Positions 1 through 31,580 of a stretch of 32,086 bases of DNA are shown here, one piece after another (position 1 is the first letter of the stretch; every line of letters begins with the position of its first letter). This DNA is from a virus. The position numbers and the translations under genes were made by a program. The stretch lies in the IMG/VR virus record IMGVR_UViG_3300027759_000284, positions 1 to 32,086 of that record; one strand, given 5' to 3'. The notes under the pieces were generated by a model. That model worked only from the letters and a program-made list of their open reading frames with translations. It was not told where the DNA came from and ran no database searches.

Positions 1-3000
1 TGCTAATTTTTCTGCTTCCACTTCAGTTATACCTTCTTTTAAATAAGACTTAATCCTATTTCTATAATATGGGGCGCCCCCAGAAGCAATAGCAAAACTA
101 TCCGCAAGCATAGTTGGCGTATAACCTATCTTTAATAAATATGATACAACAGCCCCTACTTTATTTTTACTACCAGCAGCAGCATTAGCAATCTCAGAAG
201 CAGCAACATCTTCTTTCAATCCACCACGTCTTTCTTTCATTTTATCAGAATTCCATATACGTGCAAAGTCTTTCCAATATTGAGATTGATTAGCAAATGC
301 TTTTGCCGCAGTATAAGGATTATTGTCTCTAAAATTTAAAAAGTTAATGGATCCAAGTAATTGCAATGCAGCGGATCTTGTATTCAAGAACATAATTGTT
401 CCCGTAGAACCGTTAACCCAATTACTCCACATAGATGTTTCTCTATCGCTGCCAAAACTTCTATTCTTACCGTTAATCATTCTATAAATAGAATCGTCTA
501 ATGCTTCTCTAACATTAGTACCGTAAACAGCTTCTATCTTATTCATATTAGGACCAACTAATTTACCATTCTCAAATTTACCAAATATAGCTTCTGTATT
601 TTCAATAAATTCTCCTAAGAATTTTTTTCTGCCAGATCCTTCTGTAAGATTATGCAAATCTGATATAATAGTACTTGAATCCCAGTGATCACCAGGAACA
701 ACCCATCCTTTACCTTGTCTACCCATTACAATAAGCCCTTGTTTAAAAGCATTAAGTTCTGGATCATTATTTACTAAGTTAGTTAATTTTGTTTTATCTC
801 TTTGTGATAATCCGGGTATTTCTATATCATTATCATTCCAAATAGAAACACGAATAGCTTGATCATAGGTGAAATCACCATCAGGTGTTAATGTTTCTAA
901 AGTTTTTTGTATTTCAGGGAATGCTTTGTTTAATTTTTTATATTCTCTTTTAATAGATTGTCTTGCTGCATCCATTAAATCATTACCATTTGTATAAGGT
1001 TTTAACAATGCATTTGCAAAAAACTCTCGATGTTCTTCACCTTTGGTTCCCTTACCCATAAAATTATATAAAAGTAATTCAAAGTCAGCCGCGGATGGTG
1101 GAACATAAAAATCAAATTTATTTTTCTTAGCCCCTCTTTTTCTAGCAACAACATCGGAAAATACTTTATAGTTTTCAGTTCCTTTTGTATCTTCTATGAT
1201 TTGATTAAAATCTTTATCTAATGATTTGCTAAATTTAGCTCTTGCTTGTTGAATTTCAGATTTAACATCTACAACATTTAAAACATCCTTAACCTGTTTG
1301 GGTTGACCACTAAAAGAACTAGCCATTTCTCTAACCGGATATTTTGAAATTATATATACTCCATCTTCATAAAAAGCATTCCAACCTAGTTTGTTGGCAT
1401 AAATAGCAGCCATTGCATTATATAGTTTTTTTCTGCTAGGCTCCGCCGCCGTAAATATAAGACCCTCTGTTTCATTGCTTTTTACATAATCCAATACACC
1501 ATTTATAACAGTGCCAAATACCTCAAATGCATTTCCTGCTCCTGTTATTTCTACGTCCCCGTCGAAATCGCTAAATACTAAATTTAGGGTTCCTCCTTCG
1601 TATGAACCTAATAAATTAGCCTCTTCATCTTCTAAATTATATTTTTTTATTAAGTTATCTAAAATTCTTTGATCCTTGTCGCCATAACCAAAATTACCGG
1701 TATTTGTTAAAATTATGGAATATTCCTTATTATTTACATTAAAATAAGTAATGCCTCCGGAATCCGCTATATTCCATTTTAAATCTTGTTTTGAAGTTAA
1801 GCTAAATTTTACTAATGCTTGTTGCACTTTTGAATCTACCCCGGGAATATCCAAAGCTTTCTTAACAGCTTCAACATTTTGTATTGCATCATCAGCAAAG
1901 TAGAAGTCGTTATACCCTTCAGCCGCTTTATTTGTTATCCAATCTGCTTTTGCTTGAGCAGCACTGTTACCTAAACCAGTTATATTCTCTAAAGGTATAT
2001 CTATGCCTATAGAAGATAAAAATTGATGAATAGGCACTGCGGAATTAGCAGGTCTAGCAGTAAGTATATAAAAATGTTCTGGACCAAACTTGCCAATCAT
2101 TTTCTTCATCTTTTCAACCATAGGCCCAGGCTTCCCCTCAACAACTTTACTAAATTCAGAAAAGTCAAATGTTGCTCCTTCTTCTAATAGTCTAGATCCT
2201 TCTTTAGCAAATTCGGCACCATTTAATTTACCTGTAGAACCATCGGGCATTGTGTATAGCACGTTGCTTTTTGTTAATCCAACAGTGTCGTCAAAATCAA
2301 AAACAGAAATTCCTTTTTGGGTTTTAGAAAACTTAGGATCTAAAGATTTTATAACAGCATCCGCTGTTGTTTTGCTTTGTCTTATTGCTAAATTTTGTTT
2401 GTATTTTGTGAATAAAGCATTATTAGACGCCGCATTGTCAATATTATATTTTGATTTTTCTTTAAAATCAATTAAAGTCGGGAATAATCTAATTCTATTG
2501 TATTCTCCACCTCTAACCATTCTAGCGGTTAATCTAACCTTACTTTCTAATCGTGGAATTCCTAAATTTAATATATCTTTCCCTAAATAAAATAATCCCT
2601 GTTTACCAATATTAATATAATAAACTTTTTTACTATTATATAATTGTTCTATTATTTTTTGATCAGTATCTACAGAAACTGTTAAAGCCTTTTGGAAATA
2701 ATTATCACGCAAATATTCATGCTGCGTTTTTGTCATTTTATAAGGCCATGATTTTGTATTAACACCAATAGCTTCCGCTGCTTTTTTATATTCTTTAAAG
2801 TTTGGTATATTAGCTTTTAATTTAGTAGTAAATTCTTCCGGTAATTCTAAATCTTTAGAAATATAAAAGTCACTATCATCTAAACTAATATTTAATGATG
2901 CGCTACCCATTTGAGCTAAAGCATTTAATTTGACTTCAATATTTAATATATCTTTACCTAATTGAATATTAATATCGCCTTCTCCGGTAGGATCAAATCC

Positions 3001-6000
3001 CTTAGCTTTTTTTGTTATAATTTTTACACCTTTTAGCTTAAGTTTATTTAATTCTTTTAATATCATTCTTTCATATACCGTGCCTCTTGCCTTTTCTTTA
3101 ATGTTTTGATACCTTATTAAAAAATCAAGATATTCTTCAAAAACAAATTCTTTTAATTTATCTTGATCATCTAATGGCACTTTATTAAGTATATTTTCTA
3201 CTTCTTTAGAAGTTTGCCCAAATTCAGAAGCAGCCTCAAATAGTTTAGCCGCTGTCAATTTGAATTCGTCTTTAGTTAAAGAGAGTTTAATATTGCCCCT
3301 TTCAATTTGACGTGAGATTTCTGTTGCAGCATGTTCAACTAATTCAACCCCAAGTCTTTCTTGATTAACTTGAAAAGCATCAAATATAGGCCCCTCAATT
3401 TCAAAGTCATTATTGATTATATCAAAAGCTCCCTCTTCAGCCATTGCTTTTGATAAAGATTCTTTTCTACCTCTAATTGGATTGCCATCAGGGCCAATAA
3501 TTTGAGCTAAAAATACTTCGTCAGATATGTTATTTGCTACATTAGGTAATCTTCTTACTATTTCAGCCCCGGATGTTCTACCTGCCTGATCTGTTGTTGT
3601 TTTTTCTCTATCTATTTTTTGGCTAACCCAATCAGGGAAATTAACCCATTTTCCATTAATTTGTTTTTGAATAGCTTGCGGAATTCCTCCTTGACCATCT
3701 TTAGCCATTAGCCAAGTAGTCGTCATATTTTCAAGAATATAACGTTTGTTTCTTAATAATTCTTTTCTAAGAACGCCGTCTTTTTTACCGCCAAGCATCG
3801 CTTTTATGTCAATGTCCAGCAATTTTCCAATTTCGTCTTTAATCTCAGAAATTAACGGGGTTACAGTTCTATTTAAAGAGACTGGAGCATCAATTCTAGA
3901 TTTTAATGTTCTCATCACAGTTATAATCTTCTTATAAGCCGTTTCTAAGACTTCTGGTGGAAAAACTTTTGATTCTAATGCATTCTTATATTTTAGCTTT
4001 TCTTTTGCCTCTATAACAGTTTCTTCAGCTATTAAAGCTTTTTGGTCTTCTACATCTTTTTTAATGCCTCCTTTAGTCGCCCCTTCAATACCTAATTCAG
4101 AAGCTAAAGCATTTGCTCTAAGATTTAAACGCGAACTAATAAATTTATCTAATGTTTGTTTAGATGGATCAAATTCGTTATTAATTAATAAGGCAGCGCT
4201 TTGAATTAAAGCGTCTTTATATTCGTCTCTAGTTACCCCTCGTTTAGCATCGGCAGCAATTGGATCGTATAGTCTTCTAGTTATAGTTTCAACTGTGCCG
4301 CCAAGTTCTTTACCTATTACAGATTTTGAAAAATCATTAGTAACACTGCCTGATGGAGTATTTCTTAATCCTTCTGACGCTAATTTTTTAGGGTTACCTT
4401 CGTATTTTGTATCTAATAAGTTTTGTAAAGTACCTTTACTTCTAGGTTCTTTTGTTGTAATTTCTTTTTTTACAGGTTCTTTTTTAATAGGTTCTGCTTG
4501 CACGCTAGGCCCATTAGCTTCTTCTTCTTCTAATACAGCTAGTTGGGCTTCAAAATCCGCGTCTCCAATTTCCTGAGCATTCCAAGCATCATATAAGTCT
4601 TCAATACGTTCTTCGACTGTTTTAGAGAATTTTGTTACGCCAGAAATATTTTCACCTGCTTTTAATAAATCTGACGCTCTTTCAGATATTTTACCTTTTT
4701 TAATAGATTTTGAATAATCTTTTATAAAATTATAAATATCTCTACCATCTTCAAATTCTATATTTGTAATTCCTTGTTTTGCAAATATTGGTTTAAAAAC
4801 TTTATTCCATAATCTTATTAATGTTTCTTTAACATTATCGGACCATGTAATGGTTCCATTCCTTAATAATTCAAAATACTGAGTCATGTACTCATCAGGA
4901 GCATCCTCTAAATCTTTGTTAGAATATAATCGTTCTCCTTTATCATTTAATGCAAGTATTCTTTCATCTAATTTTGCTCTTTCAGATTTACTTAAAACAC
5001 TCAAAAATGCATCTTTTAATTCTATTTTACGCTTAGGATCAGAAAATTCTGACTTTAATATATTATGAAGTAATTCATGGGGAGCAACATTTAACGCGCC
5101 AATCTTAGCCGCTCTTTCTTTGTTAATTAATATTTGTCCATTTTTTAATGCAAAACCATCGGCTTCACTTATATCCTGTGGAGTTTCTTCATTTAACTTT
5201 TGAATAGTTGCATCAAATGTTTCCTGAGTTATTTCATTATTATTTAAACTTTCTTGTAGCTTATTTTTTTCGTTTTGTATATCTTTTGCAAACCATTCAT
5301 TGTAAGCATCTTGAGCATCCTTAGTATTTTCAAATACCTCAACACTTTTACCGCTACCTAATGCTGTTTTATATATTTTATTACCATCTTTATCAACGAT
5401 ACCTTCTATAGAGCCTATACTTTTATCTAAAGTCTCTTTATTAGTTTCTATTCTTATTCTTTCTCTTTCGCTAATAGCAATTGTTGCTAATTCAGAACTT
5501 ATTTCTTTAAGTCTTTCAGTTTCTGGAGTTACTAAATCTTTGTCTTTACCGTCAATGGCTTTCTCAATATTAGCTTTTTCTAACATTAGCCCTAAAGCTT
5601 TCTCTTTTGCTCCACTGGCAAATTCAGACGGTATTTTAACACCGGAACTTCTTATAGTGCCAAGTGTTTCTAGTTCTGATCGTTTTTCCTCTTCTGTAAT
5701 ATTGCCTAATTTAAATCGTTCATTAATATTGTCAGACGCTGCTTTAAAAAAGTTATCTACCTGTATTAAATTAGTTGCGTTTTTACCTGATAAATCAAAT
5801 AATGTCGCTACTTTGGTTGCTGCTGCTTTTAATTCAATTGCTGATTGTGTTTTTACTGCTCCAACAAACGGAAATACAAAACCGACTAATCCTCCTTGAA
5901 TACCTGCTTCGTTTATTTCTTTTAAATTTAAATATTTTGTTGTATCATTATGCAATTGTACACCCATACTTACTTGATCAATTGCTTGTTGCGTACTTTC

Positions 6001-7971
6001 TGTTAAGTATTCCCCTAAAGCTGAACTGGTAATTGCCTTACCGCTTTCTAATGCACTTTTACCAAAGTTTTTAATTTCTCCTCTAAATAAAGATCCTAAT
6101 ACATTTTTAGTATCGCCTCCTAAATTTAATGCCTTGCCAGTATTTTTTATTACATTTAATTCACCAGCATATTCTGTAAGTGCAGATAAAGCAGACCAAG
6201 CCGCGGCTTCTCCCCTATCAGCATACTTACCCTCTCCAATAGCTTTAGATATTTCTTGCTTATTAGGTTCTCTGCCTAAGTCTTCCTTTAATCCGGTTTC
6301 AACGGCACTGTAATATTCAGGACCGTATGTTTGAGTAAACATATTGGCTGCTGACAAACCTACAACAAGCGGATTTCCGGTTAATGCACCAGCGGTTGTT
6401 AAAGCTATATTAGGAGTTTGTTCTCCTACTAATTCAAATATATCTTTTAATTGTATTCCGTCTTTTAAATCTGCTTGATTAAATAATCCAATATATTTCT
6501 TACTTTCTTCAATTGATTTTACCCTATCATTAATCAAATTATTTGTTTTACCTAAATAGTTTTTTAATCTATTCTTGGCCTCTCCATAAGTTTTTGGAAC
6601 ATCTTGTTCTTTTGGATTATATGTGCCAAAATTATTATTCTCCCATTCATAAGCAAAAGCCTTGTCAATTGGCGTATTATCAGACTTATCCTTAATAGTA
6701 GAATAAACATTATTAAGATTAGCAATACTATTATGATTTGCTGATACCAATGACTGCTTAGCAGATTGAACTACATTTTCAACTCCTTTGCCTGCGCCTT
6801 CCACAAAATCAGTAGCAAGTTCTAATCCTTTACCGGCAACCTTACCTACAATGCCTTGCTCTTTTGTAGCTTCAGCTATATTTCTAGTAACATCAATTGC
6901 AGATAAAAAGGTATCTTTACTTCTGCCAAATGATTTAATTAAATCTTCTTTTGCTCCGTTTTCAATACTTGCAAATTGTTCGTTTAAACTTTTAAACCCA
7001 GATGAATTAATTAAGAATCCGGTAGTGGTTTTATAGGCATAGTCCTGTAATTCCTTAGTAGCTTTTTCAACTTCTATAGGATCGGTTAATTTATATTTTT
7101 TTTGTATTTCTTCAGTTTTTTGTTTAATCAGCGGGATAGCTTTTGCTTTAGCAAAGTTTTGTTCAAATTCAAAAGCACTATCTTGGGAAGCTAATTTTTT
7201 AACATTTAGAGCAATAGCTTGATCTAATTCTGCTTGCGTTTTAAAATTCTTAGGATTTATATCACTTTTAACCAGATCTACAGCTTCTTGCTTTGGTTTA
7301 GTTTCGTAAGCATCCGTTATTTGATTATATGTTTTTTCAGTATAATTAGTCTTAGGGACTAGTTTAGATACAAATAAAGCACGATCTGCAGGTTTGTAAT
7401 CCTTAAGGAATTCAAACTTGCCAGTAGCATTCATCGCGTCTTTAGAATCTTGGTTAAAAGTTTGTTGTTGGGTTTTAATAGGAGTTTGTTCATAATAGGT
7501 TAATTTACCATTATTGTCTTCCTCACTATCCGGGAATAAACTTTTAGCAAAATCTTTAGCGTCATCCCATAATGATGGTTCTTCTATTGGTTTTGCTTTT
7601 GGTTTTTTATTTATATTAGCGGAATCTATTGAATAAGGAACATTCGGACCACCAATAGGATTTTCAGCAACTTTACCAAACCCAGCAATTGTTTGTTGTT
7701 TGGGTTTAATAGTTGCTTTTTGATTAACATTATTCTTTTTTAATACCGATGAAGTAGGTTCCGATTTGGATGCCGTATTTTTTTCCGTTACAATTGCATC
7801 CTTTTTTGCAACGGGGTTTATCTTTCCCGGCGAAACTTTTTGTTTATTAGATTTTTGCTTTAAGTTATTTCTTTTTATAATATCATCAAATGTTGTATTT
7901 TGATCTTTAGCAAATTGATTGATCTCATCCTCATTATAAATGTCTCCTAATTCGTTTGTATATTCTAACAT
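1..7971 (-). CDS. Giant multi-domain polyvalent (virion-delivered) protein, 3' end outside window
   Basis: One uninterrupted frame begins with ATG at 7971-7969 and is still open at base 1, giving at least 2657 codons; the C-terminus is missing. In order: a Lys/Gln/Asn-rich, probably disordered start (residues 1-180); hydrophobic Ala/Gly stretches near 518-545 and 688-706 that could be membrane-active; a zincin motif HELLH at 965-969, with an acidic DEYMTQYFE segment downstream; a linker rich in Glu/Lys near 1130-1180; a PD-(D/E)XK-like site (E1634, D1666, then EVK at 1679-1681); a HAD hydrolase set (DFDDT at 1892-1896, ILTAR with T1971, YFADD with DD at 2027-2028); a segment with ITGAGNA and SRKKLY motifs near 2139-2195; and a region with DGDFTYDQA near 2365. 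Such fusions are typical of phage 'polyvalent proteins'. It follows two internal-virion candidates 16 bases downstream, so I infer that it is packaged and ejected with the DNA. The exact role is unknown. Confidence 0.85.
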   Translation of the reverse strand, partial: MLEYTNELGDIYNEDEINQFAKDQNTTFDDIIKRNNLKQKSNKQKVSPGKINPVAKKDAIVTEKNTASKSEPTSSVLKKNNVNQKATIKPKQQTIAGFGKVAENPIGGPNVPYSIDSANINKKPKAKPIEEPSLWDDAKDFAKSLFPDSEEDNNGKLTYYEQTPIKTQQQTFNQDSKDAMNATGKFEFLKDYKPADRALFVSKLVPKTNYTEKTYNQITDAYETKPKQEAVDLVKSDINPKNFKTQAELDQAIALNVKKLASQDSAFEFEQNFAKAKAIPLIKQKTEEIQKKYKLTDPIEVEKATKELQDYAYKTTTGFLINSSGFKSLNEQFASIENGAKEDLIKSFGRSKDTFLSAIDVTRNIAEATKEQGIVGKVAGKGLELATDFVEGAGKGVENVVQSAKQSLVSANHNSIANLNNVYSTIKDKSDNTPIDKAFAYEWENNNFGTYNPKEQDVPKTYGEAKNRLKNYLGKTNNLINDRVKSIEESKKYIGLFNQADLKDGIQLKDIFELVGEQTPNIALTTAGALTGNPLVVGLSAANMFTQTYGPEYYSAVETGLKEDLGREPNKQEISKAIGEGKYADRGEAAAWSALSALTEYAGELNVIKNTGKALNLGGDTKNVLGSLFRGEIKNFGKSALESGKAITSSALGEYLTESTQQAIDQVSMGVQLHNDTTKYLNLKEINEAGIQGGLVGFVFPFVGAVKTQSAIELKAAATKVATLFDLSGKNATNLIQVDNFFKAASDNINERFKLGNITEEEKRSELETLGTIRSSGVKIPSEFASGAKEKALGLMLEKANIEKAIDGKDKDLVTPETERLKEISSELATIAISERERIRIETNKETLDKSIGSIEGIVDKDGNKIYKTALGSGKSVEVFENTKDAQDAYNEWFAKDIQNEKNKLQESLNNNEITQETFDATIQKLNEETPQDISEADGFALKNGQILINKERAAKIGALNVAPHELLHNILKSEFSDPKRKIELKDAFLSVLSKSERAKLDERILALNDKGERLYSNKDLEDAPDEYMTQYFELLRNGTITWSDNVKETLIRLWNKVFKPIFAKQGITNIEFEDGRDIYNFIKDYSKSIKKGKISERASDLLKAGENISGVTKFSKTVEERIEDLYDAWNAQEIGDADFEAQLAVLEEEEANGPSVQAEPIKKEPVKKEITTKEPRSKGTLQNLLDTKYEGNPKKLASEGLRNTPSGSVTNDFSKSVIGKELGGTVETITRRLYDPIAADAKRGVTRDEYKDALIQSAALLINNEFDPSKQTLDKFISSRLNLRANALASELGIEGATKGGIKKDVEDQKALIAEETVIEAKEKLKYKNALESKVFPPEVLETAYKKIITVMRTLKSRIDAPVSLNRTVTPLISEIKDEIGKLLDIDIKAMLGGKKDGVLRKELLRNKRYILENMTTTWLMAKDGQGGIPQAIQKQINGKWVNFPDWVSQKIDREKTTTDQAGRTSGAEIVRRLPNVANNISDEVFLAQIIGPDGNPIRGRKESLSKAMAEEGAFDIINNDFEIEGPIFDAFQVNQERLGVELVEHAATEISRQIERGNIKLSLTKDEFKLTAAKLFEAASEFGQTSKEVENILNKVPLDDQDKLKEFVFEEYLDFLIRYQNIKEKARGTVYERMILKELNKLKLKGVKIITKKAKGFDPTGEGDINIQLGKDILNIEVKLNALAQMGSASLNISLDDSDFYISKDLELPEEFTTKLKANIPNFKEYKKAAEAIGVNTKSWPYKMTKTQHEYLRDNYFQKALTVSVDTDQKIIEQLYNSKKVYYINIGKQGLFYLGKDILNLGIPRLESKVRLTARMVRGGEYNRIRLFPTLIDFKEKSKYNIDNAASNNALFTKYKQNLAIRQSKTTADAVIKSLDPKFSKTQKGISVFDFDDTVGLTKSNVLYTMPDGSTGKLNGAEFAKEGSRLLEEGATFDFSEFSKVVEGKPGPMVEKMKKMIGKFGPEHFYILTARPANSAVPIHQFLSSIGIDIPLENITGLGNSAAQAKADWITNKAAEGYNDFYFADDAIQNVEAVKKALDIPGVDSKVQQALVKFSLTSKQDLKWNIADSGGITYFNVNNKEYSIILTNTGNFGYGDKDQRILDNLIKKYNLEDEEANLLGSYEGGTLNLVFSDFDGDVEITGAGNAFEVFGTVINGVLDYVKSNETEGLIFTAAEPSRKKLYNAMAAIYANKLGWNAFYEDGVYIISKYPVREMASSFSGQPKQVKDVLNVVDVKSEIQQARAKFSKSLDKDFNQIIEDTKGTENYKVFSDVVARKRGAKKNKFDFYVPPSAADFELLLYNFMGKGTKGEEHREFFANALLKPYTNGNDLMDAARQSIKREYKKLNKAFPEIQKTLETLTPDGDFTYDQAIRVSIWNDNDIEIPGLSQRDKTKLTNLVNNDPELNAFKQGLIVMGRQGKGWVVPGDHWDSSTIISDLHNLTEGSGRKKFLGEFIENTEAIFGKFENGKLVGPNMNKIEAVYGTNVREALDDSIYRMINGKNRSFGSDRETSMWSNWVNGSTGTIMFLNTRSAALQLLGSINFLNFRDNNPYTAAKAFANQSQYWKDFARIWNSDKMKERRGGLKEDVAASEIANAAAGSKNKVGAVVSYLLKIGYTPTMLADSFAIASGGAPYYRNRIKSYLKEGITEVEAEKLA

Positions 7972-7987
7972 AAAATTTATTTAATTG

Positions 7988-9445
7988 TTATCTTAATGCT
8001 CTTTTTAAAGTTCCTCCAATGTATTTTTGTAACACGTATGGATCATGTGTTTTTTCAGTTCCTGCTTTTGGCAATCCATCTTTATCAATTAAAGCCCAAT
8101 TACCATTTTCATCCTTAGTTAATGTATAACCATTTATTATTGGTGTACCACCTTTTCCAGTTGAAATAACATCTTTTATTCTTTTATTCAAGTTCTCTTG
8201 TTTCAATACTGAAGCAGGTGTTTTACCAGATCCTGAACCACCACTTTTGGTTCTACCCTTTGATGTATATTCGTATTGATCTTCTAATTCTACATCTTTA
8301 TTCCAATATACAGTTTTATCGCCTTCTTGAGTTCTACGTAGGTTTTTTGTTATATTTCCAAAAGCATCGTCAACTAATATATTTGTTAAAAGCTCCTCTT
8401 TATTATCAGCAGTTTTAAATACGTCATCATAGTAATGCACATCTTTTTTTAAAGTACAATTAACAAGCGCTCTTAAATCCGCTTCCTTACCTGCTTTCAA
8501 AAACGCAGATGCTTTAATACCAGCTTTCTCTCTAAGATCTGCTTTTATTTCATAATCATTTAATCTTTGTGCTTTACCTAATTGGTATTGCCCAGTGTCT
8601 TTACCGTCTACTATTACCGGTATTTTTACTTTTTCTACTTCTTGAGATAAATATTTTTGGACTATATTTTCATTTTTTTCATCATAGAAAACTTTACTTG
8701 CGGATTTGGTCCAATCATCATTGTTTATTACCTTTTGTAAATATGTTCCGCTTCCACCTTCAGCTGAAGCTAAATATGCGGCAGCATCAATCTCATCCTC
8801 AATTAAATTTCCATTCATATCTGTAGCGGATACTTTAAATTTGAATGAATCACCTAAATCTACAATGTCAATAGAATGGTCTTTATATTGTTGTGTCATA
8901 CCACTAAATACATTTAGAGTCATAGTTCTTTTTCCAATTTGATCTGGTGAACCATTTACAACCATGCCACCCGCAACTCCATAAGAATTAGGCGACATGT
9001 TCTCTCTATACGATGCCGATTCCGGCGCAAATATACCCGCAAACTTTCCTGCTGTATCCATAAACATATCTGCTTGCCTAATTGTAGCTAAATATTCAGA
9101 ACGTTTATTAGAATCTGTTTCATTTAAAAGCAATATTCTTGCATCAGCAGCAGCGGCTATTTTTGTCTGCAGCATGTCCCGAACTTTTTTATCCGCGTCT
9201 ACATTTGTTTTTTTAACTTTTTGAGACCAATCAGATAATTTATCATTGTACAAAAGATCAACCTCGTTCTTTTGTTGTTGTAATTTTTGAAGTGACAACT
9301 TCTCTTCTTTCTCTCTTTCTCTTCTTCGTTCTCCTGCAGTTAATAAACCTTGAGCAATAGAATTGGACATGGACAATATACCTTTCGATAATTGTTCACT
9401 TCCAGCATTCATATTTATTATAGGAGGATTTTCATAATATCCCAT
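7988..9445 (-). CDS. Putative internal virion / ejection (cargo) protein, 485 aa
   Basis: The sequence is hydrophilic after a short start, with a highly charged segment (about residues 38-85, including GERRREREKEEK) that should form a coiled coil. It has no signal peptide and no enzyme motif that I can recognise. The middle is mixed alpha/beta with many Asp and Lys; the last third has a Gly/Ser linker (KSGGSGSGKTPAS) that looks like a P-loop by eye but sits in a low-complexity stretch and is probably not one. It lies between a 241-aa Ala/Gln-rich internal-protein candidate and the giant protein, the position where podoviruses keep proteins ejected with the DNA (T7 gp14-16, crAss-like cargo proteins). 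The assignment rests on position and composition, not on a recognised family. Confidence 0.6.
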   Translation of the reverse strand: MGYYENPPIINMNAGSEQLSKGILSMSNSIAQGLLTAGERRREREKEEKLSLQKLQQQKNEVDLLYNDKLSDWSQKVKKTNVDADKKVRDMLQTKIAAAADARILLLNETDSNKRSEYLATIRQADMFMDTAGKFAGIFAPESASYRENMSPNSYGVAGGMVVNGSPDQIGKRTMTLNVFSGMTQQYKDHSIDIVDLGDSFKFKVSATDMNGNLIEDEIDAAAYLASAEGGSGTYLQKVINNDDWTKSASKVFYDEKNENIVQKYLSQEVEKVKIPVIVDGKDTGQYQLGKAQRLNDYEIKADLREKAGIKASAFLKAGKEADLRALVNCTLKKDVHYYDDVFKTADNKEELLTNILVDDAFGNITKNLRRTQEGDKTVYWNKDVELEDQYEYTSKGRTKSGGSGSGKTPASVLKQENLNKRIKDVISTGKGGTPIINGYTLTKDENGNWALIDKDGLPKAGTEKTHDPYVLQKYIGGTLKRALR

Positions 9446-9469: not shown

Positions 9470-10195
9470 TTATGCACCACCACCAATAAATCCACCAGCA
9501 ATATTACCGATCCCGCTAAATATAGAACCATACGCAGCATTTTGTGCATTTTGAGCACCAGCCATATTTGCTTGAGCTTGCGCTTGCTGCCCAGACAATC
9601 TATTTAATTTAGCAATATCTCTAGATTCTTGTTCTCCAAACTTAAATTTAATACCCTCAGATTCGGCTGTTTGTGTTCTAACTCCTTCTTGGTATTGAGC
9701 ATTCTGAATTCTTCTTTGCTCTTCCATTTTAGCTTCTTGTAACTTTTGAGCTCCTTCTGCTTTAAGTCTTTCATTATCTGCTTCTTGTTTTTCAATACTA
9801 GCGGAAACACCTTTCTTGCTTTGCAACGCAGCCTGAGCCAACGCAGTAGCACCCCCAGCACTTGATCCAGTAGATTTTAACATGTCTAAGGTATTTGCTA
9901 ATGATATATCCGCTTCTTCTGCTTCCATTTTAGCCGCCTGTGTAGCCACCCCTAAATTAGCAAAAGCATTTGTCATATTGCCACTTAGATCCTTAGCCAA
10001 GTAACTAAGGTCTTTAAAATTTGCATAAGGATTTGGAATAGATTGTCTACTCTGTTCTAATTTTTGTATTTCCCACGCTTTTCTTTCCGCTTCATTAGCA
10101 AAGCCATTTGCTGCTTGCCTTGCTTGATTAGCATTAACCAAACCGCCCCCAACTATTGCTGCCCCCGCTATTACCGCTGCTGTTACTGCTGCCAT
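9470..10195 (-). CDS. Putative internal virion protein, membrane-active type, 241 aa
   Basis: The N-terminus (residues 1-25) is a hydrophobic Ala/Val/Gly segment starting MAAVTAAVIAGAAIVGGG, and the C-terminus is a Gly-rich hydrophobic tail (about 220-241, FSGIGNIAGGFIGG). Between them lies a long Ala/Gln/Glu-rich helical region (about 85-215) predicted to be coiled coil. Two hydrophobic ends flanking a helical rod is the layout of small podovirus ejection proteins such as T7 gp14, which make a channel across the cell envelope. The gene ends just before the 485-aa cargo candidate and begins next to the stop of the GNAT-like gene. The role is inferred from layout and position; no specific family was recognised with certainty. 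Confidence 0.6.
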   Translation of the reverse strand: MAAVTAAVIAGAAIVGGGLVNANQARQAANGFANEAERKAWEIQKLEQSRQSIPNPYANFKDLSYLAKDLSGNMTNAFANLGVATQAAKMEAEEADISLANTLDMLKSTGSSAGGATALAQAALQSKKGVSASIEKQEADNERLKAEGAQKLQEAKMEEQRRIQNAQYQEGVRTQTAESEGIKFKFGEQESRDIAKLNRLSGQQAQAQANMAGAQNAQNAAYGSIFSGIGNIAGGFIGGGA

Positions 10196-10196
10196 A

Positions 10197-10604
10197 TTAT
10201 ATTATTTTTTTTGAAATTTCATAGGATGGAGTTTCATCAACTGTATATCCCAATTTTTTATGGGTATTTATCAAATGAATATTTCTTGTTAAACTTATTA
10301 TAATGCTATACCCTTGCGCTTTAGCCACATCCTCTAACGATGCTATAAGCAATTCTAAAGCTTCTTTTCTATCTTTATCCTTGTATTCCGGATTTGAAAC
10401 AATCCAATCTAACCATGTAGCGCTTGAATTTGTTAAATATAAAAATCCAGTTACAATTGGTATATCCCCTTTATAAACCATTAATCCACCTAACCCATTT
10501 AATGGTAATGTTTCTCGATTTATTTTTGGCCATCTCCACCATTTCCACCAGGAGGGTAAATAATCCCAATCTGATTCTTGTAATGCTTTTACATGTAATT
10601 CCAT
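10197..10604 (-). CDS. GNAT-like acetyltransferase-fold protein, 135 aa
   Basis: This is a compact protein with the strand/helix pattern of the GNAT fold: an N-terminal Trp-rich segment (SWWKWWRW, about residues 18-25), a central beta region (GLMVYKGDIPIVTGFLYL, about 40-57, followed by ATWLDWIVSN), a helix (EALELLIASLEDVAKAQG, about 81-98), a strand (SIIISL) and a closing segment with NTHKKLGY (about 113-120) that matches the usual 'yeklGF' end of GNAT domains. The acetyl-CoA pyrophosphate loop (Q/RxxGxG/A) is not clearly present, so activity is uncertain. It sits between the tail stabilization genes and the internal virion proteins, an odd place for a metabolic enzyme. It may modify a virion or host protein, or may have become a structural or chaperone factor. 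Confidence 0.6.
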   Translation of the reverse strand: MELHVKALQESDWDYLPSWWKWWRWPKINRETLPLNGLGGLMVYKGDIPIVTGFLYLTNSSATWLDWIVSNPEYKDKDRKEALELLIASLEDVAKAQGYSIIISLTRNIHLINTHKKLGYTVDETPSYEISKKII

Positions 10605-19392: not shown

Positions 19393-20856
19393 CTATGTTG
19401 TAGCAGTAAACAATACAAAATTGTTAGCCGCTTGTGTAACTAAACATCTTTCAGACAAGAAGTGTACTTGCATTGCATCAAGATCAGAAGTGTAAGCGCC
19501 TCCAACAGACCCAGTAATCCAAGATTTCATACGTCTGTCGTCAGCTTGATTAGCTCTATAACGAACGTGTAAGAAAGGTCTACGGATATTAGTGCCTAAT
19601 TGTTGATCATATACTGTAGATGTTCCAGCAGGAATAAGCACACCGTCAATAGACGCATTAGTCATACCTCCACGAGTAGAAGCGTCATTTAAGTATTTCC
19701 AGTCAGTTTTGTAGAAATCATAAGATCCACGACGGAAACCAGAGAAACCTAAGTTTAATGCCATTTGCTCAGAGTTTTCAAACAAACCGTAAGCAACACC
19801 ACCGGCAGAACCAGCAGATAAAGAAGCTAGCATATCATCAAAATCTAATGAAGTAGCTCTATTTAAGAAGAACATGTTTTCTTCAATAGCTCCTTGTGTA
19901 TCTAATCCTTTTAAGATAGAATCAAAATCGCTTAATCCACTTGCAGCGGTAAAGTTGTTTACAATATTACCTCTTTCTCTAATAGCAGCAAAAAGACCTT
20001 GTGTTCCTTTATAGGTTACTCCAGTTGCAGGAGTTAAAGTTGATACCCCTGAACTAGCAGCTGATAATTCACCTTCAATAACTGCCATTTCTAAATAATC
20101 TTCAAAACGTAGTCTTGTTTCGGATTCAGCTTTTAAATACCATAAGAAACCACCTGTTCCATCTTCAGTCGCAACTTCAACCCATCCAATTTGTGCTGTA
20201 TCAGATCCAGATATTTGGTATCTTTCTTTGATAATGATAGGAGAATTATTATACTGAGTGAATGAAGGTGTTACAGCATTAATAGAAGCATCGGTGGATC
20301 CTTTTATAAATTCAGAACCATAAACAAATATTTTAAGATTTGTTACTCCAGTAAAATTTACTGCGCCAGAAGTTAAACTTGCTTGCGTATAAGGATAAAC
20401 AGTAAGAGTAGCAGTAGTGCCTGAAGTAGATGAAAGATTAACAAGCACTTTAAGTTCAGCACCAGTTGTAGGATTCATAACCACTAAAGTTTGTCCCGGA
20501 GAAACAACGTTTTGAACGAAGTTAATACCAGTACCCCCAGTTGTAAATGTTAAAGTAGTAGAGGTAGCACAAGTTACATTATTATAAGCTATATGTAATC
20601 TATTTTGTTCAGACCAGATAACCTGATCGGAAGACATTGGCATTTCAGCTCCTACCATACGTAAGAATCCAGAAAGAGTTCTGTTCCCGTAACGCTCTAC
20701 TTCAGCTTCGTAGACTTCAGGTAAATATTGTTGAGCAAAATCATTACCACTTCCGTTTGCGAAGTTTAAATAGTTTGTCTCTAACGCTTGTTGTTTTTGA
20801 GACGGTTTAATAGAACCAAAATTAGTTCCAGTAACCTGGTTAACCATGTTTGACAT
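19393..20856 (-). CDS. Major capsid protein (HK97-fold type), 487 aa
   Basis: The length (487 aa) and order fit the HK97-fold capsid protein of crAss-like and related podoviruses. The N-terminal region is an extended arm (SNMVNQVTGTNFGSIKPS, then FAQQYLPEVYEAEVERYGNR at about 40-59). A middle beta-rich insertion is rich in Thr/Val/Gly (about 95-180). The helical spine follows with ESETRLRFEDYLEMAVIEGE (about 241-260) and the later DFDSILKGLDTQGAIEENMF region (about 310-330), and the C-terminal part includes RRPFLHVRYRANQADDRRMK. No protease domain is fused. It lies just after the scaffold-like gene, has an A/T-rich leader without Shine-Dalgarno and is followed by a strong terminator, which agrees with high expression. 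Confidence 0.8.
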   Translation of the reverse strand: MSNMVNQVTGTNFGSIKPSQKQQALETNYLNFANGSGNDFAQQYLPEVYEAEVERYGNRTLSGFLRMVGAEMPMSSDQVIWSEQNRLHIAYNNVTCATSTTLTFTTGGTGINFVQNVVSPGQTLVVMNPTTGAELKVLVNLSSTSGTTATLTVYPYTQASLTSGAVNFTGVTNLKIFVYGSEFIKGSTDASINAVTPSFTQYNNSPIIIKERYQISGSDTAQIGWVEVATEDGTGGFLWYLKAESETRLRFEDYLEMAVIEGELSAASSGVSTLTPATGVTYKGTQGLFAAIRERGNIVNNFTAASGLSDFDSILKGLDTQGAIEENMFFLNRATSLDFDDMLASLSAGSAGGVAYGLFENSEQMALNLGFSGFRRGSYDFYKTDWKYLNDASTRGGMTNASIDGVLIPAGTSTVYDQQLGTNIRRPFLHVRYRANQADDRRMKSWITGSVGGAYTSDLDAMQVHFLSERCLVTQAANNFVLFTATT

Positions 20857-22026: not shown

Positions 22027-24432
22027 CTATGCGTTAAATTGATCCCCTAAATTTTCTAAGAAATTCATTCCATTACTTTCAAAATCTTGTGGCAATGTAT
22101 TATTTTTTCTTTGGTCTATTAAAGCGGACTGTTGTGTTGCTTGTATTTTTGTTCTATTATCTTTGCGGTCTTCAGCATCGGTAATATTCTTGTTGGCAAC
22201 TTGCTCTTTTACTTGTGCTAATTGCATATCGTATTGAAATTGTATTTGCATCAACTGTTTTTTAATTTCAGCCTCTGTTTGCATTCTTTGTATTTCAAAT
22301 TGTGATTTTGCTTGTTCAACATTAACTGTCTCCTGTGTTAACGCTTGTTGCTTTTGCACTTCAAATAGTGCCGCCTTTTCTGCAGTCTGTTGATTAGCTT
22401 GTGCTTGCGCTTGTATGTTTGCCATTTGAGCTTGTTGCTCGGCTCTTAATTTCTTTTTCTTTCTAAACTTTAATGTTTGATTTGCTAGTTTAAGATTTTT
22501 AATTTGACGTATATCAATCACATCGTCTAAATCAATACCTCCGCTTTGCAAAGCAACCTGAATATTCTGTTCTAATAAAGCTTTTTCTTCTTCATCAGGT
22601 TCTAAATCCAAGAAAATACCAAAGTCATATAAGTTTAGATTTTTAATTTCTTTTAATGTTGTTACATTATAAGTTGTTATACTGTCCTCCATTACTTTTG
22701 CTAATAAAGGATAATCCAAACAATCAGCAATTCTTAAAGATATATTCTCACAAGCCCTAAGGGTTAAGAATAAACTTGACTGTAATATATGTTTTGTTGC
22801 AGTATTTGAAGCATTAGCTGCCATCTTCTGTAATCCAACTAAAGTATCTCTATCTGGCATACTACCATCTCTTGCTTCATTAAGTCCTGTAACGTCTCTA
22901 ATGAGTTGTAAATAGTATTGGTATGTTTGTATCAATGAAGCAATTTTTGCTTGACCAGATGAGCTTGTTAGCTCTTGTATTGGTACTTTACCTTGATTTA
23001 ATCCACCATCTTGAGACATAGATCTACCAACAATACTACCGGTTTGGAAATACATATTTAATGCTTCAGCAGCATTATAGTTTGTACCATTACCTAAATC
23101 AACTTCGGCTAATCCATCTACATCTACGAATACTCCATCAGGTATCATTTTAGACATTACCTGTTGCAGTTTAAGATGTGTTAATTGAATCATATCTGCA
23201 AATCCAGTTATTCTATTAACTATAGAATCAATACGTCCCTTATACATTCTAGGTGCAGAAATAACATAATTCATTTCTACTTTAGTCATGTTTGAAAAAG
23301 GACGTGACATGTTTTCTGATAATTTCCATTCAAGCATTGTATTAGTGCCTAATATCTTTGCTCCTGTATATAGTACCTCTATTGTTCTAGATACTTTATC
23401 AAACTTGTCACTTGGAGGAGGATTAAAATCATCAGTCTTTTCAATAACTTTTTCTAATCCGTTTTCTCCATATTTTATTTTAAACACTTGGTTCATGTAT
23501 GTCTTATATTCAAAATATAATACTTGCACCGTATTTTCATCGTAGTTACCCCAGCCAGTTATATATTGTCTATTACCTGGCATTTGTTGTATCTTATATA
23601 ATTCTTCCTCTGATAAATGAGGGAATTGCATTTTTAATTCTGGTATTGTAACTGCTTTAACTTCTCCAACATAATATATATCTTCAAAGTTTGGATCTTC
23701 TGTGTATGAATAAACCAAATAAGCTGGATCAACATATTCTGTTTTAATACCTTCGCTAACATTAAAGTTTGTTTTTACACAGCCAATACCTAATACTGTT
23801 AAATCGTAATTTAATCTACGTCTTGTTAGATCCCATTTGTTTTGAGCTAATACAGTATTAATAGCTTCTTCCTCCGCTATCTCAACAGATTGCTTATAGG
23901 AAAGCTGCATGTGCAATTCAAGTTCTTCTTTTGTTTCAGGCAATTCATCTGCCCCTAATGTAGAGTTAGCAAAATCTTCTCCTGTTATAGCTTTAGCTTT
24001 TGCAACAAGATCTTGGGAATACATGTCTCTTAAGATAGCTTGTGCGTAATTTGTTTTTTGTTTTACTGATTCTGGATCTTGGGCATAAGCTTTTATATCA
24101 TAACCCTTCTGCGACATACCATTAACAACAATATCAACAAACTTTGATATTACAGGTACAGGTTTCCAATCTAAATTCAAATAAGAAATATCACCATTAG
24201 TAGCCAACTCATCTTTGTATTTTTGTACGGATTGTTCTCCTCTGGCATATAATCTTAATTGATGAAAGTTATTCCAGTTACTTAAATATCTATTTTGTGT
24301 AGTTCTACCTTGATCAAACCATTCTTGTTCTATAGCACGGGATACTTGTAATCCATATTCTTCAGATGCTTTAACTGCGTCTGGTACTACCTGACTTGGA
24401 AATGCACTGTTTGTATTTGTGTATATATTCAT
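22027..24432 (-). CDS. Portal protein, 801 aa
   Basis: The length and position between terminase and scaffold are those of a crAss-like portal. The N-terminal half includes RTTQNRYLSNWNNFHQLRLY (about 43-62), a region with YEYDP-like strands (VKTNFNVSEGIKTEYVDPAY, about 219-238) and the core helices around SRPFSNMTKVEMNYVISAPR (about 380-400) and GRIDSIVNRITGFADMIQLT (about 402-421). The stretch GLNEARDGSMPDRDTLVGLQ (about 518-537) precedes the crown side. Residues about 645-765 are an extreme Gln/Ala-rich coiled coil, likely the barrel or an internal extension. The start codon follows the terminase stop with no gap, so the two are translationally linked. Confidence 0.8.
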   Translation of the reverse strand: MNIYTNTNSAFPSQVVPDAVKASEEYGLQVSRAIEQEWFDQGRTTQNRYLSNWNNFHQLRLYARGEQSVQKYKDELATNGDISYLNLDWKPVPVISKFVDIVVNGMSQKGYDIKAYAQDPESVKQKTNYAQAILRDMYSQDLVAKAKAITGEDFANSTLGADELPETKEELELHMQLSYKQSVEIAEEEAINTVLAQNKWDLTRRRLNYDLTVLGIGCVKTNFNVSEGIKTEYVDPAYLVYSYTEDPNFEDIYYVGEVKAVTIPELKMQFPHLSEEELYKIQQMPGNRQYITGWGNYDENTVQVLYFEYKTYMNQVFKIKYGENGLEKVIEKTDDFNPPPSDKFDKVSRTIEVLYTGAKILGTNTMLEWKLSENMSRPFSNMTKVEMNYVISAPRMYKGRIDSIVNRITGFADMIQLTHLKLQQVMSKMIPDGVFVDVDGLAEVDLGNGTNYNAAEALNMYFQTGSIVGRSMSQDGGLNQGKVPIQELTSSSGQAKIASLIQTYQYYLQLIRDVTGLNEARDGSMPDRDTLVGLQKMAANASNTATKHILQSSLFLTLRACENISLRIADCLDYPLLAKVMEDSITTYNVTTLKEIKNLNLYDFGIFLDLEPDEEEKALLEQNIQVALQSGGIDLDDVIDIRQIKNLKLANQTLKFRKKKKLRAEQQAQMANIQAQAQANQQTAEKAALFEVQKQQALTQETVNVEQAKSQFEIQRMQTEAEIKKQLMQIQFQYDMQLAQVKEQVANKNITDAEDRKDNRTKIQATQQSALIDQRKNNTLPQDFESNGMNFLENLGDQFNA

Positions 24433-26658
24433 TTATTTATGTATTTTTGATAAAGAACCTGTATTATCATATTTTTTAAATCCTAATTCAAATTTTGGTT
24501 TTTCATACGGAGTTGTAGGTACATACAAATGTTTATTGCAAGCCATTATGGCTAACCCAGAACTAATAGAAGCATCATGTTTTGTTCTATTATTTATATT
24601 AAATCTTCCCCAATCTTCCAATGTTTTTTGAAAATACATATTACCATAAGATTCATTATTAAATCCAACATAATTTTCTATGTACGTTTCAATTGCAGAA
24701 GCATGTGCTTGCATTATATCTTGTGAAGAGTTTGGGATACCGCCTATTTCTTTCTCGGCTGGCGATAATTTATTCCAAACCTTATCTGGTCTATTTATAG
24801 AATAACCTCTATAACCTCTTCTTTTTAAATAATACAAAAGTCTTGGTTTATTATTCTCTGCTAGTATAGGCATTCCGTAAAACACCAATGCCATAAGAAC
24901 ATCCTCAAAAAATATCTCTGCTGTTTGAGGTCTTGCAACATATTCTAAAAAGAATTGATTAGGTGGAACATCTTCCATACTGAACTTTGTTAATCCATGT
25001 AAAGCTCCGTTAGAACCTCTACTTGCATCAACCGTTCCTGATATATCGTAACTGTCACAACCAAATGCTCCACAGTGTTCATTACCCGGATACTTTAGTC
25101 CATTCTTTATAATTACACGATTTTGAAGATGTTTAGCGGGAACCCAGGAAATTAAGAATCTTCCATCCTTATGAGGATAAAACATTACTTTAGAATCTTG
25201 TTGCCCGTTCTCCCATTGGAAACTTCCACGTGTTAAAACATTTGAGTTTTTAAGATCATCATTATAATCTATTTGCTCGTATATTTTTGTAAGATTAAAT
25301 AAAGATTGTTTTGCTTCATCTCTAAAAGCGTGTTGTTCTGTTCTTGGAAACTGTCGATAGTATTCGTTCAAACCATCTTGATCTGACTTTAAACCGTCTA
25401 CTTCATTTTGCCAATGCTCAATAACACCATACTCAATCCAATTTCCATCTACTCCTTTTACGGGATTTTTCGGAGTGTCGAAGACAGGTAACCCATGAGT
25501 ATCAATGAATCCCTCGTACGACCATTCCATAGGTATGAACAAACTATATAGTCCTGAGCTAGTCTGTCCATTGCGGTTTCTTTTTGTAACGTCGGAATCA
25601 TAATAAAGTTTTTTAAAATTATCCCCTCCTTTATCTAAAGCATTTGATGTTGAACCCATCATACACTTACCAATAATTCTACTACCTAATCGTAAACATG
25701 TTTTAGTAACACGCCAGTTGTTTAATATGTTATCAGGTTTAAGCCACTTTCCACTTTCATCATGGACCAATAGTTTTAACTTTTCACCATCGTAGGAGTT
25801 GTCTCCGGTATTTTTCCAGTCAATAGTTGTATCTAATCCTTCTAGTTCTCCTGCCGCTTCACTACTATCTAATTTCTTTCTTGTAAATTTAGAAGCAGGT
25901 ATACGATAAGCTAATTCTGTTTTAGGACGGTCCATACCATCTTGTATGGGTTTAAAAAAGAAAGGATAGTTAATAGATATAGGAACAACCTTATCCGTAA
26001 ACATGGTTTTAGCATCACCCCCTGATTTTGATAGTATACCAAATCTTGAGTCACTGGATATAGTTGCTTGATTAACTAATTCAGCAGAAGACATAAATGA
26101 AAATCCAGAACGTCTATTCTTTAAATAACACATTCCATAACATCTTGTATCTGCTTTGCAAGCTTCCCAAAATATAAAGAACAATCTATTTGATTCTCTA
26201 AAGTCTGGTGCGCCAACGTCTATCTTGCTCCATTGCAAGTACATATAATGTGTACCTGTCATATAGGTAGGAGTTCCGTTGTTATTAAAAAAAATACCTT
26301 CGTCTCTATACTTAAATTCAGCATCTACGTAATCGTACCACTGCTCTTTAAAATGATCTGGATATTTATTCCAATCAAATACATTCTTTATTTTTTCCAG
26401 TTCTTTTGGGTATTGTATCTTTTCCCAATACTGTTCTTCTTTCTTATTAGATCTAGAGTATACTTTATCAACTGGTGGCAATGCAATCTTTAAATTTTGT
26501 ATTTCATAGATTTCTCCAATCTTGCCAGTCTTACTAATAACAACTAAATCATGATCTCTGTTATAACCATACGCCCATTTGTTATTGCGATTGTTCTGCT
26601 TTATAACACTGGGCTTAATGTAATCTGTTACAACTCTGAATAAACTTTGTTCGTACAT
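24433..26658 (-). CDS. terL: Terminase large subunit (ATPase-nuclease), 741 aa
   Basis: This is the DNA packaging motor. The ATPase half has YMYLQWSKID (about 138-147), a deviant Walker A-like KNRRSGFSFMSS (about 180-191) in place of GxxGxGKS/T, a clear Walker B LLVHDE (296-301), and the coupling segment GSTSNALDKGG (about 335-345). The C-terminal RNase-H-like nuclease has its acidic residues visible: D535 in FGCDSYD, E601 in ILAENNKPR and D695 in TKHDASISSGLA. The length and the deviant ATP loop agree with terminases of crAss-like and other Bacteroidota podoviruses. The stop abuts the portal start, and the start overlaps the upstream gene as TAATG. Confidence 0.88.
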   Translation of the reverse strand: MYEQSLFRVVTDYIKPSVIKQNNRNNKWAYGYNRDHDLVVISKTGKIGEIYEIQNLKIALPPVDKVYSRSNKKEEQYWEKIQYPKELEKIKNVFDWNKYPDHFKEQWYDYVDAEFKYRDEGIFFNNNGTPTYMTGTHYMYLQWSKIDVGAPDFRESNRLFFIFWEACKADTRCYGMCYLKNRRSGFSFMSSAELVNQATISSDSRFGILSKSGGDAKTMFTDKVVPISINYPFFFKPIQDGMDRPKTELAYRIPASKFTRKKLDSSEAAGELEGLDTTIDWKNTGDNSYDGEKLKLLVHDESGKWLKPDNILNNWRVTKTCLRLGSRIIGKCMMGSTSNALDKGGDNFKKLYYDSDVTKRNRNGQTSSGLYSLFIPMEWSYEGFIDTHGLPVFDTPKNPVKGVDGNWIEYGVIEHWQNEVDGLKSDQDGLNEYYRQFPRTEQHAFRDEAKQSLFNLTKIYEQIDYNDDLKNSNVLTRGSFQWENGQQDSKVMFYPHKDGRFLISWVPAKHLQNRVIIKNGLKYPGNEHCGAFGCDSYDISGTVDASRGSNGALHGLTKFSMEDVPPNQFFLEYVARPQTAEIFFEDVLMALVFYGMPILAENNKPRLLYYLKRRGYRGYSINRPDKVWNKLSPAEKEIGGIPNSSQDIMQAHASAIETYIENYVGFNNESYGNMYFQKTLEDWGRFNINNRTKHDASISSGLAIMACNKHLYVPTTPYEKPKFELGFKKYDNTGSLSKIHK

Positions 26659-28072: not shown

Positions 28073-28435
28073 TTATGACAATGTCAAAAGATATTTTAAT
28101 TTTGCTGTTTCACCAGATAAAGATTGCGCTAGATTTGATATATCCCCAAATTTAGCGGTATCACCATAAGTTTCTAAGTCTTTAGAAAACTTCATTACTT
28201 CATCTGCTATTTTCATAGAATCGGCTTTTGAATCGACGGCATCGATCTTTAAAGACTGAATTCTTTTTCCAGTATAACCCATTAATTTTTCTACAACATC
28301 ATCTTTAAATTCTTGTAAAAATTCATAGAATTCTCCGGTTGCTTTATGTTCTGCAAAACTTCTAGTTTGCCAATGTATTAAATGGATCTGTTCATGAAAG
28401 AACGCTAATTTACCTGCAATTTCTTCTGTTGTCAT
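28073..28435 (-). CDS. Dps/ferritin-like protein, 120 aa
   Basis: The sequence is all helical and opens with the arrangement of a Dps-type diiron site: FFHEQIHLIHWQT (residues 12-24, with H14, H18, H21), H30 in FAEHKATGEFYEF, E35, then D45/D46 and E49 in KDDVVEKLMG. In Dps proteins the set is H-(x11)-H-(x3)-D-(x10)-D-(x3)-E; the spacing here is shorter between the two His but otherwise close. Length (120 aa) is shorter than typical Dps (about 160 aa). Phage proteins of this type exist, and a role in DNA protection or in head structure is possible; neither can be decided here. It is followed 5 bases later by the tRNA-like element. Confidence 0.6.
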   Translation of the reverse strand: MTTEEIAGKLAFFHEQIHLIHWQTRSFAEHKATGEFYEFLQEFKDDVVEKLMGYTGKRIQSLKIDAVDSKADSMKIADEVMKFSKDLETYGDTAKFGDISNLAQSLSGETAKLKYLLTLS

Positions 28436-31265: not shown

Positions 31266-31580
31266 TTATTGTTTTTTATAAGCTTCTAATTCCCAAGGTA
31301 ATTTCTTAGATCCTTCATTCATAGTTGCTCGGGGATATTTTTTGTTTTTCCAAATAACGTGGGTATCAGTATAATCTAAATCACCTCGTTTCATCTGGTC
31401 AATATGAACCATCTCGTGTTCTATTGTTTTATTCTTTGCTAATTCTAATGGAGAAACATTTTTGTTTACAAGTATGGTTCCATTATTTTGAGCCATACCC
31501 AAAACATTATCATCCATGTCTACACTATATATTGGTGTTTGATCCGTATTATACGGGGCTCCTCTCATTGAAAATGCCAT
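31266..31580 (-). CDS. Small zincin-like metalloprotease-type protein, 104 aa
   Basis: The signature IEHEMVHIDQM contains HEMVH at residues 55-59 (bases 31418-31404), the HExxH zinc-binding motif with helix before it (ELAKNKTIEHEMVHIDQMKRG). A candidate third ligand lies in LPWELEAYKKQ (E97 or E99), and a strand KYPRATMNEG runs between, as in short zincin domains. At 104 aa it is close to a minimal zincin domain. It starts 1 base after the stop of the Lys-rich gene. A prohead protease or a protein cleaving a structural partner is an attractive guess; the capsid module shows no other protease. Confidence 0.65.
   Translation of the reverse strand: MAFSMRGAPYNTDQTPIYSVDMDDNVLGMAQNNGTILVNKNVSPLELAKNKTIEHEMVHIDQMKRGDLDYTDTHVIWKNKKYPRATMNEGSKKLPWELEAYKKQ

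Follow-up and report, generated by a model that had tools for sequence, protein, structure and literature searches.

The stretch of DNA analysed here (the window) is a 32,086-base IMG/VR fragment, IMGVR_UViG_3300027759_000284. By PHROGs assignment it holds a podovirus late block, whose last gene within the fragment encodes a giant protein:

24433-26658, TerL (PHROGs)
22027-24432, portal (PHROGs)
19393-20856, major-capsid-like protein (PHROGs)
extending down to 10615, structural proteins (PHROGs)
9470..10195, minus strand, 241-aa gene, its product weakly similar to the structural protein gp099 of phi38:1
7988..9445, minus strand, 485-aa gene for a putative internal virion protein, upstream of the giant in related loci also
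1..7971, minus strand, gene of the giant, a candidate polyvalent protein, 2657 codons from its ATG, running off the contig at the 3' side

The sequence-only reading had described a single frame of at least 2657 codons, and this holds: positions 1-7971 are read through on the minus strand with no stop before the contig end. Complete relatives of the giant are single ORFs of 2344-3323 aa, and nearly all of 47 related loci have one ORF at the same place. Judged by how far relatives extend past aa 2657, the window giant is without its last ~320-440 C-terminal residues; the relatives' ORF stops beyond the window end mostly adjoin an opposite-strand gene. The giant had also been placed directly after internal-virion genes; the 485-aa and 241-aa genes do lie in the late block, and of the two only the 241-aa family has a structural match, a weak profile similarity to phi38:1 gp099 (E 3e-7), no profile similarity to gp099 being found for the 485-aa family.

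The giant divides into the following parts, all on the minus strand:

aa 1-42, 7846..7971, conserved N-terminal tag M-x-x-Y-x-x-x-G-x-x-Y-T-E-D-E-x-N
aa 43-480, 6532..7845, variable polar/helical region, probably disordered
aa 480-730, 5782..6534, hydrophobic helical domain homologous to elemo gp18, phi38:1 gp101 and phi18:3 gp123
aa 890-1110, 4642..5304, predicted zincin metallopeptidase (H965, E966, H969, E1027)
aa 1114-1117, 4621..4632, junction motif 1, KFSK
aa 1206-1561, 3289..4356, conserved central domain (ENxTTT..GGxPxAxxK..IDR..TDxAGxTxG), fold unassigned
aa 1562-1565, 3277..3288, junction motif 2, KLSL (K-F/Y-S in most relatives)
aa 1567-1878, 2338..3273, predicted PD-(D/E)XK nuclease, Hjc-like (G1630, E1634, D1666, E1679, K1681)
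aa 1880-1883, 2323..2334, junction motif 3, KFSK
aa 1885-2045, 1837..2319, predicted phosphatase of the HAD type, akin to the phage polynucleotide kinases of phrog_415
aa 2055-2058, 1798..1809, junction motif 4, KFSL
aa 2059-2245, 1237..1797, optional slot-C module, weakly phrog_16075/DUF6934-like, which a minority of the relatives carry
aa 2246-2249, 1225..1236, junction motif 5, KFSK
aa 2250-2657, 1..1224, first part of an all-helical C-terminal core (C-core), a family hallmark, the rest lying outside the window

The motifs of three enzymes had been read in this chain, and conservation of catalytic residues bears out all three, arguing that each is a real catalytic site in a multi-enzyme protein. 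In the zincin, the histidines and glutamate of HELLH (aa 965-969) and the downstream third-ligand glutamate, E1027, are the sole invariant residues among 23 diverged sequences with a mean column identity of 24%; each of the 111 full-length giants has a single HExxH, against 0.005 expected per shuffled protein, which excludes chance. The nuclease residues (G1630xxYE1634, D1666 and E1679-x-K1681, within GDINIQ...NIEVK at aa 1665-1681) were compared in 15 sequences, down to 18-25% identity, where D, E, K and one glycine are invariant and the helix-1 glycine and glutamate nearly so; the rows of this alignment were mostly selected by the D/E-x-K pattern, so that conservation of the triad is partly by construction. 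The triad is kept in one relative (L033) that the pattern missed and that was clustered by BLAST, which is independent evidence, as are the helix-1 residues. The HAD domain has all four motifs, invariant in the alignment: I (DxDxT; D1892, D1894 and T1896 in VFDFDDT, 1890-1896), II (T1971 in LTAR, 1970-1973), III (K2008) and IV (D2027 and D2028 in FYFADD, 2023-2028). Matches to phrog_415 (polynucleotide kinase) were found in 3 of 16 and in 6 of 17 members.

Searches against the PDB with profiles of the zincin, the HAD domain, the central domain and the C-core gave no credible match. The nuclease profile had two PDB matches only, both archaeal Hjc resolvases and both borderline (E 0.0084 and 0.23). 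A structural model of 1117 residues (aa 940-2056) has fairly confident blocks at the zincin, central domain, nuclease and HAD within low overall confidence (mean pLDDT 68, pTM 0.33); a PDB-wide fold search with it gave no significant match, Hjc (0.60) and a HAD phosphatase (0.57) being among the highest-probability Foldseek matches with non-significant E-values. The C-core is nearly all helical in its model, for which Foldseek found no significant match in the PDB. Comparison of the whole giant with Pfam, PHROGs and PDB sequences yielded nothing usable, and a match to SMC2 was rejected as an artefact of coiled-coil bias. A sigma-factor-like look of the first part of the central domain was likewise dropped, that part being unconserved between subfamilies.

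The enzyme cargo is swapped among relatives at fixed slots, even inside the HAD domain. The slot between the central domain and HAD holds the nuclease, an EHxxP module or other sequence; by profile match, 19 of the 111 giants have the nuclease and 36 the EHxxP module, 56 being unassigned. The EHxxP module, with an invariant histidine and a nearly invariant proline, stands in for the nuclease in many relatives, and its profile has no credible PDB match. The module, seen for example at L020:13958-14875, possibly has an HNH-like fold. At the HAD slot, 81 of the giants have HAD, five a P-loop kinase instead, one (L177) both, with the kinase nested inside HAD, and 24 neither; the two kinase-bearing members tested, L154 and L177, match AAA_33 at 59.3 and 53.9 bits (cut-off 27). 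In four relatives (L007, L012, L035 and L040) HAD is interrupted by an ART-like insert, that of L007 matching ART-PolyVal at 15.2 bits, below the cut-off. The HAD loop after YTMP and before KLNAEEFA appears as an insertion hot spot for an ART-like domain or a P-loop kinase, inserts being seen in L007, L012, L035, L040, L107, L127 and L177. On either side of slot C lies a copy of the same flank (DVKS..QQA..KFS).

The N-terminal part links the giant to the virion. A profile of aa 480-730 matches gp18 of the cultured Flavobacterium phage vB_FspP_elemoE_6-9C (Elemovirus; E 5e-46) and, from the likewise cultured Cellulophaga phages, phi38:1 gp101 (E 1e-25) and phi18:3 gp123 (E 9e-24), and nothing else among 540 ORFs and reversed decoys; the whole-protein match to these phages had at first looked coiled-coil-biased, and the domain-only profile with reversed decoys settled the matter. 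Each of the three proteins is the final gene product of its own late block, and the record of phi18:3 gp123 cites MS/MS virion proteomics, evidence that spans the homologue of the hydrophobic domain alone, since gp123 is without the enzyme part. Because the window giant is likewise the last late gene and shares this domain with terminal late products, one of them MS-annotated, we infer, with good support from these comparisons, that it is packaged in the virion and ejected with the DNA. The hydrophobic character that had been noted is only mild (best 19-residue Kyte-Doolittle score 1.39, aa 688-706), and the disorder that had been noted is probable, aa 46-480 being 65% polar or charged. The tag at aa 1-42 sits only at the N-termini of giants and in no other gene of the loci examined; it is possibly a packaging or ejection signal. 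In one subgroup (L107, L111, L113-L115 and L124), ENFQNGDAETDASVTP stands at the N-terminus instead of the YTEDEIN tag.

Relatives of the giant are encoded by 47 IMG/VR loci, to which profiles of the central domain and C-core added 27 and afterwards another 58 distinct giants. At least 585 IMG/VR stretches encode the C-core, which has no match in 50,697 phage records and can serve as the hallmark of a large uncultured phage group. Fifteen loci are in MAG contigs, mostly with Bacteroidetes-group names, and isolates gave none. By tblastn (thresholds 1e-10 and 1e-5), TerL and the major capsid protein match only phages of Flavobacterium, Cellulophaga, Tenacibaculum and Maribacter and one environmental genome. 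The genome of the phage is probably 60-70 kb in size. MW202828, which has the nearest TerL, encodes a 3859-aa giant at the same place (L049, 741-12320) with two HEFGH motifs; it was considered as a family member and rejected, the profiles giving no convincing match and the HExxH motifs being all that is shared.

Several known systems resemble parts of this arrangement. Polyvalent proteins of phages and conjugative elements, a class described by Iyer et al. 2017 (PMC5512222), combine several unrelated enzymes in one chain with a zincin hub, a late-gene neighbourhood and expected injection; the window giant has at least two disparate enzymatic domains (zincin, PD-(D/E)XK and HAD) and is the last gene of a TerL-portal-MCP-structural block. 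None of the catalogued polyvalent domains reaches the Pfam cut-off in the window giant, and ART-PolyVal stays below it in relatives. What distinguishes the present family is its fixed, exchangeable nuclease and HAD/PNK slots and its junction motif, of which the portions of PMC5512222 consulted give no sign. As to the suggestion that the combination may be undescribed, the class is described, and keyword look-ups in that article returned no PD-(D/E)XK or HAD module. Elemo gp18 (3694 aa), also a last late gene, has the hydrophobic domain (E 6e-48) and, downstream of it as in the window giant, a zincin (HEIFH, E 2e-8), but nothing that resembles the central domain, nuclease, HAD or C-core; phi18:3 gp123 (1935 aa) and phi38:1 gp101 (1691 aa) are shorter, with the homologous hydrophobic domain and no zincin or HAD motif. 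The N4 virion RNA polymerase is likewise a giant, ejected protein in which an HExxH domain precedes a large helical C-terminal domain, the latter without known structural relatives (PMC12633501); the likeness seen is one of architecture, and the N4 protein carries an RNA polymerase whereas the window giant has none. Archaeal Hjc resolvases are small stand-alone enzymes, whereas the window nuclease is a module with an extra C-terminal part. In comparison with T4-type polynucleotide kinase/phosphatase (phrog_415, phrog_505), the window giant has HAD only, the HAD of relatives is weakly phrog_415-like, and a P-loop kinase occurs in or instead of HAD, as in the nested arrangement of L177.

The reading that we favour, and consider somewhat more likely than not, is that the giant is a virion-borne polyvalent protein of a Bacteroidota podovirus that processes nucleic-acid ends. 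Its gene, which closes the structural block, would be expressed late and the product incorporated into the particle, as its position and its homology to an MS-detected virion protein suggest. At infection the giant would leave together with the DNA or before it, perhaps aided in packaging or membrane passage by the tag and the hydrophobic domain. It would then refold in the host, where the zincin may free modules from the chain or cut a host protein. The exchangeable middle would act on nucleic acids through the Hjc-like PD-(D/E)XK nuclease and the polynucleotide-kinase/phosphatase-type HAD; the presence of nuclease and HAD here and of a P-loop kinase in relatives suggests that DNA or RNA is cut, has its ends healed, or both, during the first minutes of infection, presumably in attack on host DNA or in counter-defence. 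The helical C-core would be a conserved scaffold.

There are two further readings of what the giant is. In one, it is purely structural, acting in ejection or in the manner of a tape measure, and its enzyme domains have decayed: the hydrophobic domain and the helical C-core are the parts common to cultured relatives or most conserved, and the HAD nucleophile motif is degenerate in L009 and L037. We regard this as improbable, given that conservation within the enzyme domains is highest at the catalytic residues and that the slots are refilled by other enzymes with intact motifs. The sequence-only reading had instead compared the region with that of crAss-like phages, in which giant cargo proteins and a virion RNA polymerase are placed, and the place in the late block does resemble that of the crassvirus cargo genes gp45-gp50 (PMC10172136). 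The nearest TerL and MCP relatives belong to Flavobacteriia phages, not to Crassvirales, and Pachyviridae and Pervagoviridae lie outside Crassvirales; neither Pfam nor PHROGs gave an RNA polymerase family match, and no DxDxD is conserved. The DFDGD of slot C, the one DxDxD of the window protein, was tried as an RNA polymerase motif and dropped, being unconserved in relatives. A crAss-like cargo protein that carries or replaces a virion RNA polymerase is accordingly a most improbable identity for the giant, and neither the crAss-like placement nor the polymerase comparison was borne out.

Two more rival accounts concern the zincin and the junction motif. Four KFS[KL] and one KLSL all stand at mapped domain junctions downstream of the zincin; the four KFS[KL] compare with 0.14 expected and were reached by none of 5000 shuffles, and the motif is absent from ten other window proteins tested. 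Across the 111 relatives, K[FY]S is enriched 15-fold at the C-core start and central-domain end and 6-7-fold at the HAD start and end, and is depleted within domains (in the C-core interior, 3 seen against 59 expected), counts in which sites in related proteins are not independent. The motif also stands before the unrelated P-loop kinase module. At every junction type the serine is encoded by both codon families, TCN and AGY, and since junction codons differ within one gene, the likeness of the motifs lies at the protein level at most junctions. These observations suit a self-processing polyprotein in which the internal zincin cuts the K-F-S-K/L junctions and frees the enzymes in the virion or the host, a processor role having been proposed for the zincins of polyvalent proteins (PMC5512222). 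Against it, no K[FY]S site follows the zincin in 27 of the 111 relatives, and site number shows no covariation with zincin divergence (partial rank correlation 0.015). Junctions 4 and 5, moreover, have a duplicated flank in common, and the N4 virion RNA polymerase has a zincin yet is packaged uncut (PMC5512222). Self-processing is an attractive idea, offered tentatively and as rather less likely than not. The motif could instead be a mere linker or a recombination joint that aids module exchange, the zincin attacking a host protein. The duplicated flanks around slot C and the independence of site number from the zincin fit this, as does the near absence of correlation between zincin and C-core distances (0.159), from which it follows that the giant is a mosaic; the protein-level likeness at junctions with differing codons speaks against it. 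We give the linker or joint a little under an even chance. The most far-reaching version, a self-cutting, genome-delivered polyprotein that frees an exchangeable kit of nuclease plus 3'-phosphatase and/or 5'-kinase in a very large group of uncultured aquatic Bacteroidota phages, is doubtful, more so than self-processing as such. Now that candidate sites of cutting, the invariant residues of the active sites and elemo gp18 as a cultured relative have been named, the purpose of the ubiquitous zincin of polyvalent proteins becomes directly testable in an abundant and sharply defined family.

A few further features of the loci deserve mention. In three of them the giant is broken up, with two or three ORFs in its place (L027, 7127-16290; L152, 4180-12178; L199, 5419-11881), the break lying inside HAD in L027 and L152 and at the C-core start in L199; natural fission, an intervening element or an assembly error may account for this. 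In the window, a 135-aa GNAT-like gene without a Pfam match at E 0.05 lies between structural genes (10197-10604, minus strand), and MW202828 has an annotated acetyltransferase at the matching place. A 120-aa gene (28073-28435, minus strand) matches DUF5856 above the cut-off (54.2 bits), and its product has a Dps/ferritin-like look by eye. A 104-aa gene (31266-31580, minus strand) encodes another zincin-like protein of this phage, a stand-alone one that has an HExxH (HEMVH) and a weak match to Peptidase_M76 (E 0.032, below the cut-off).
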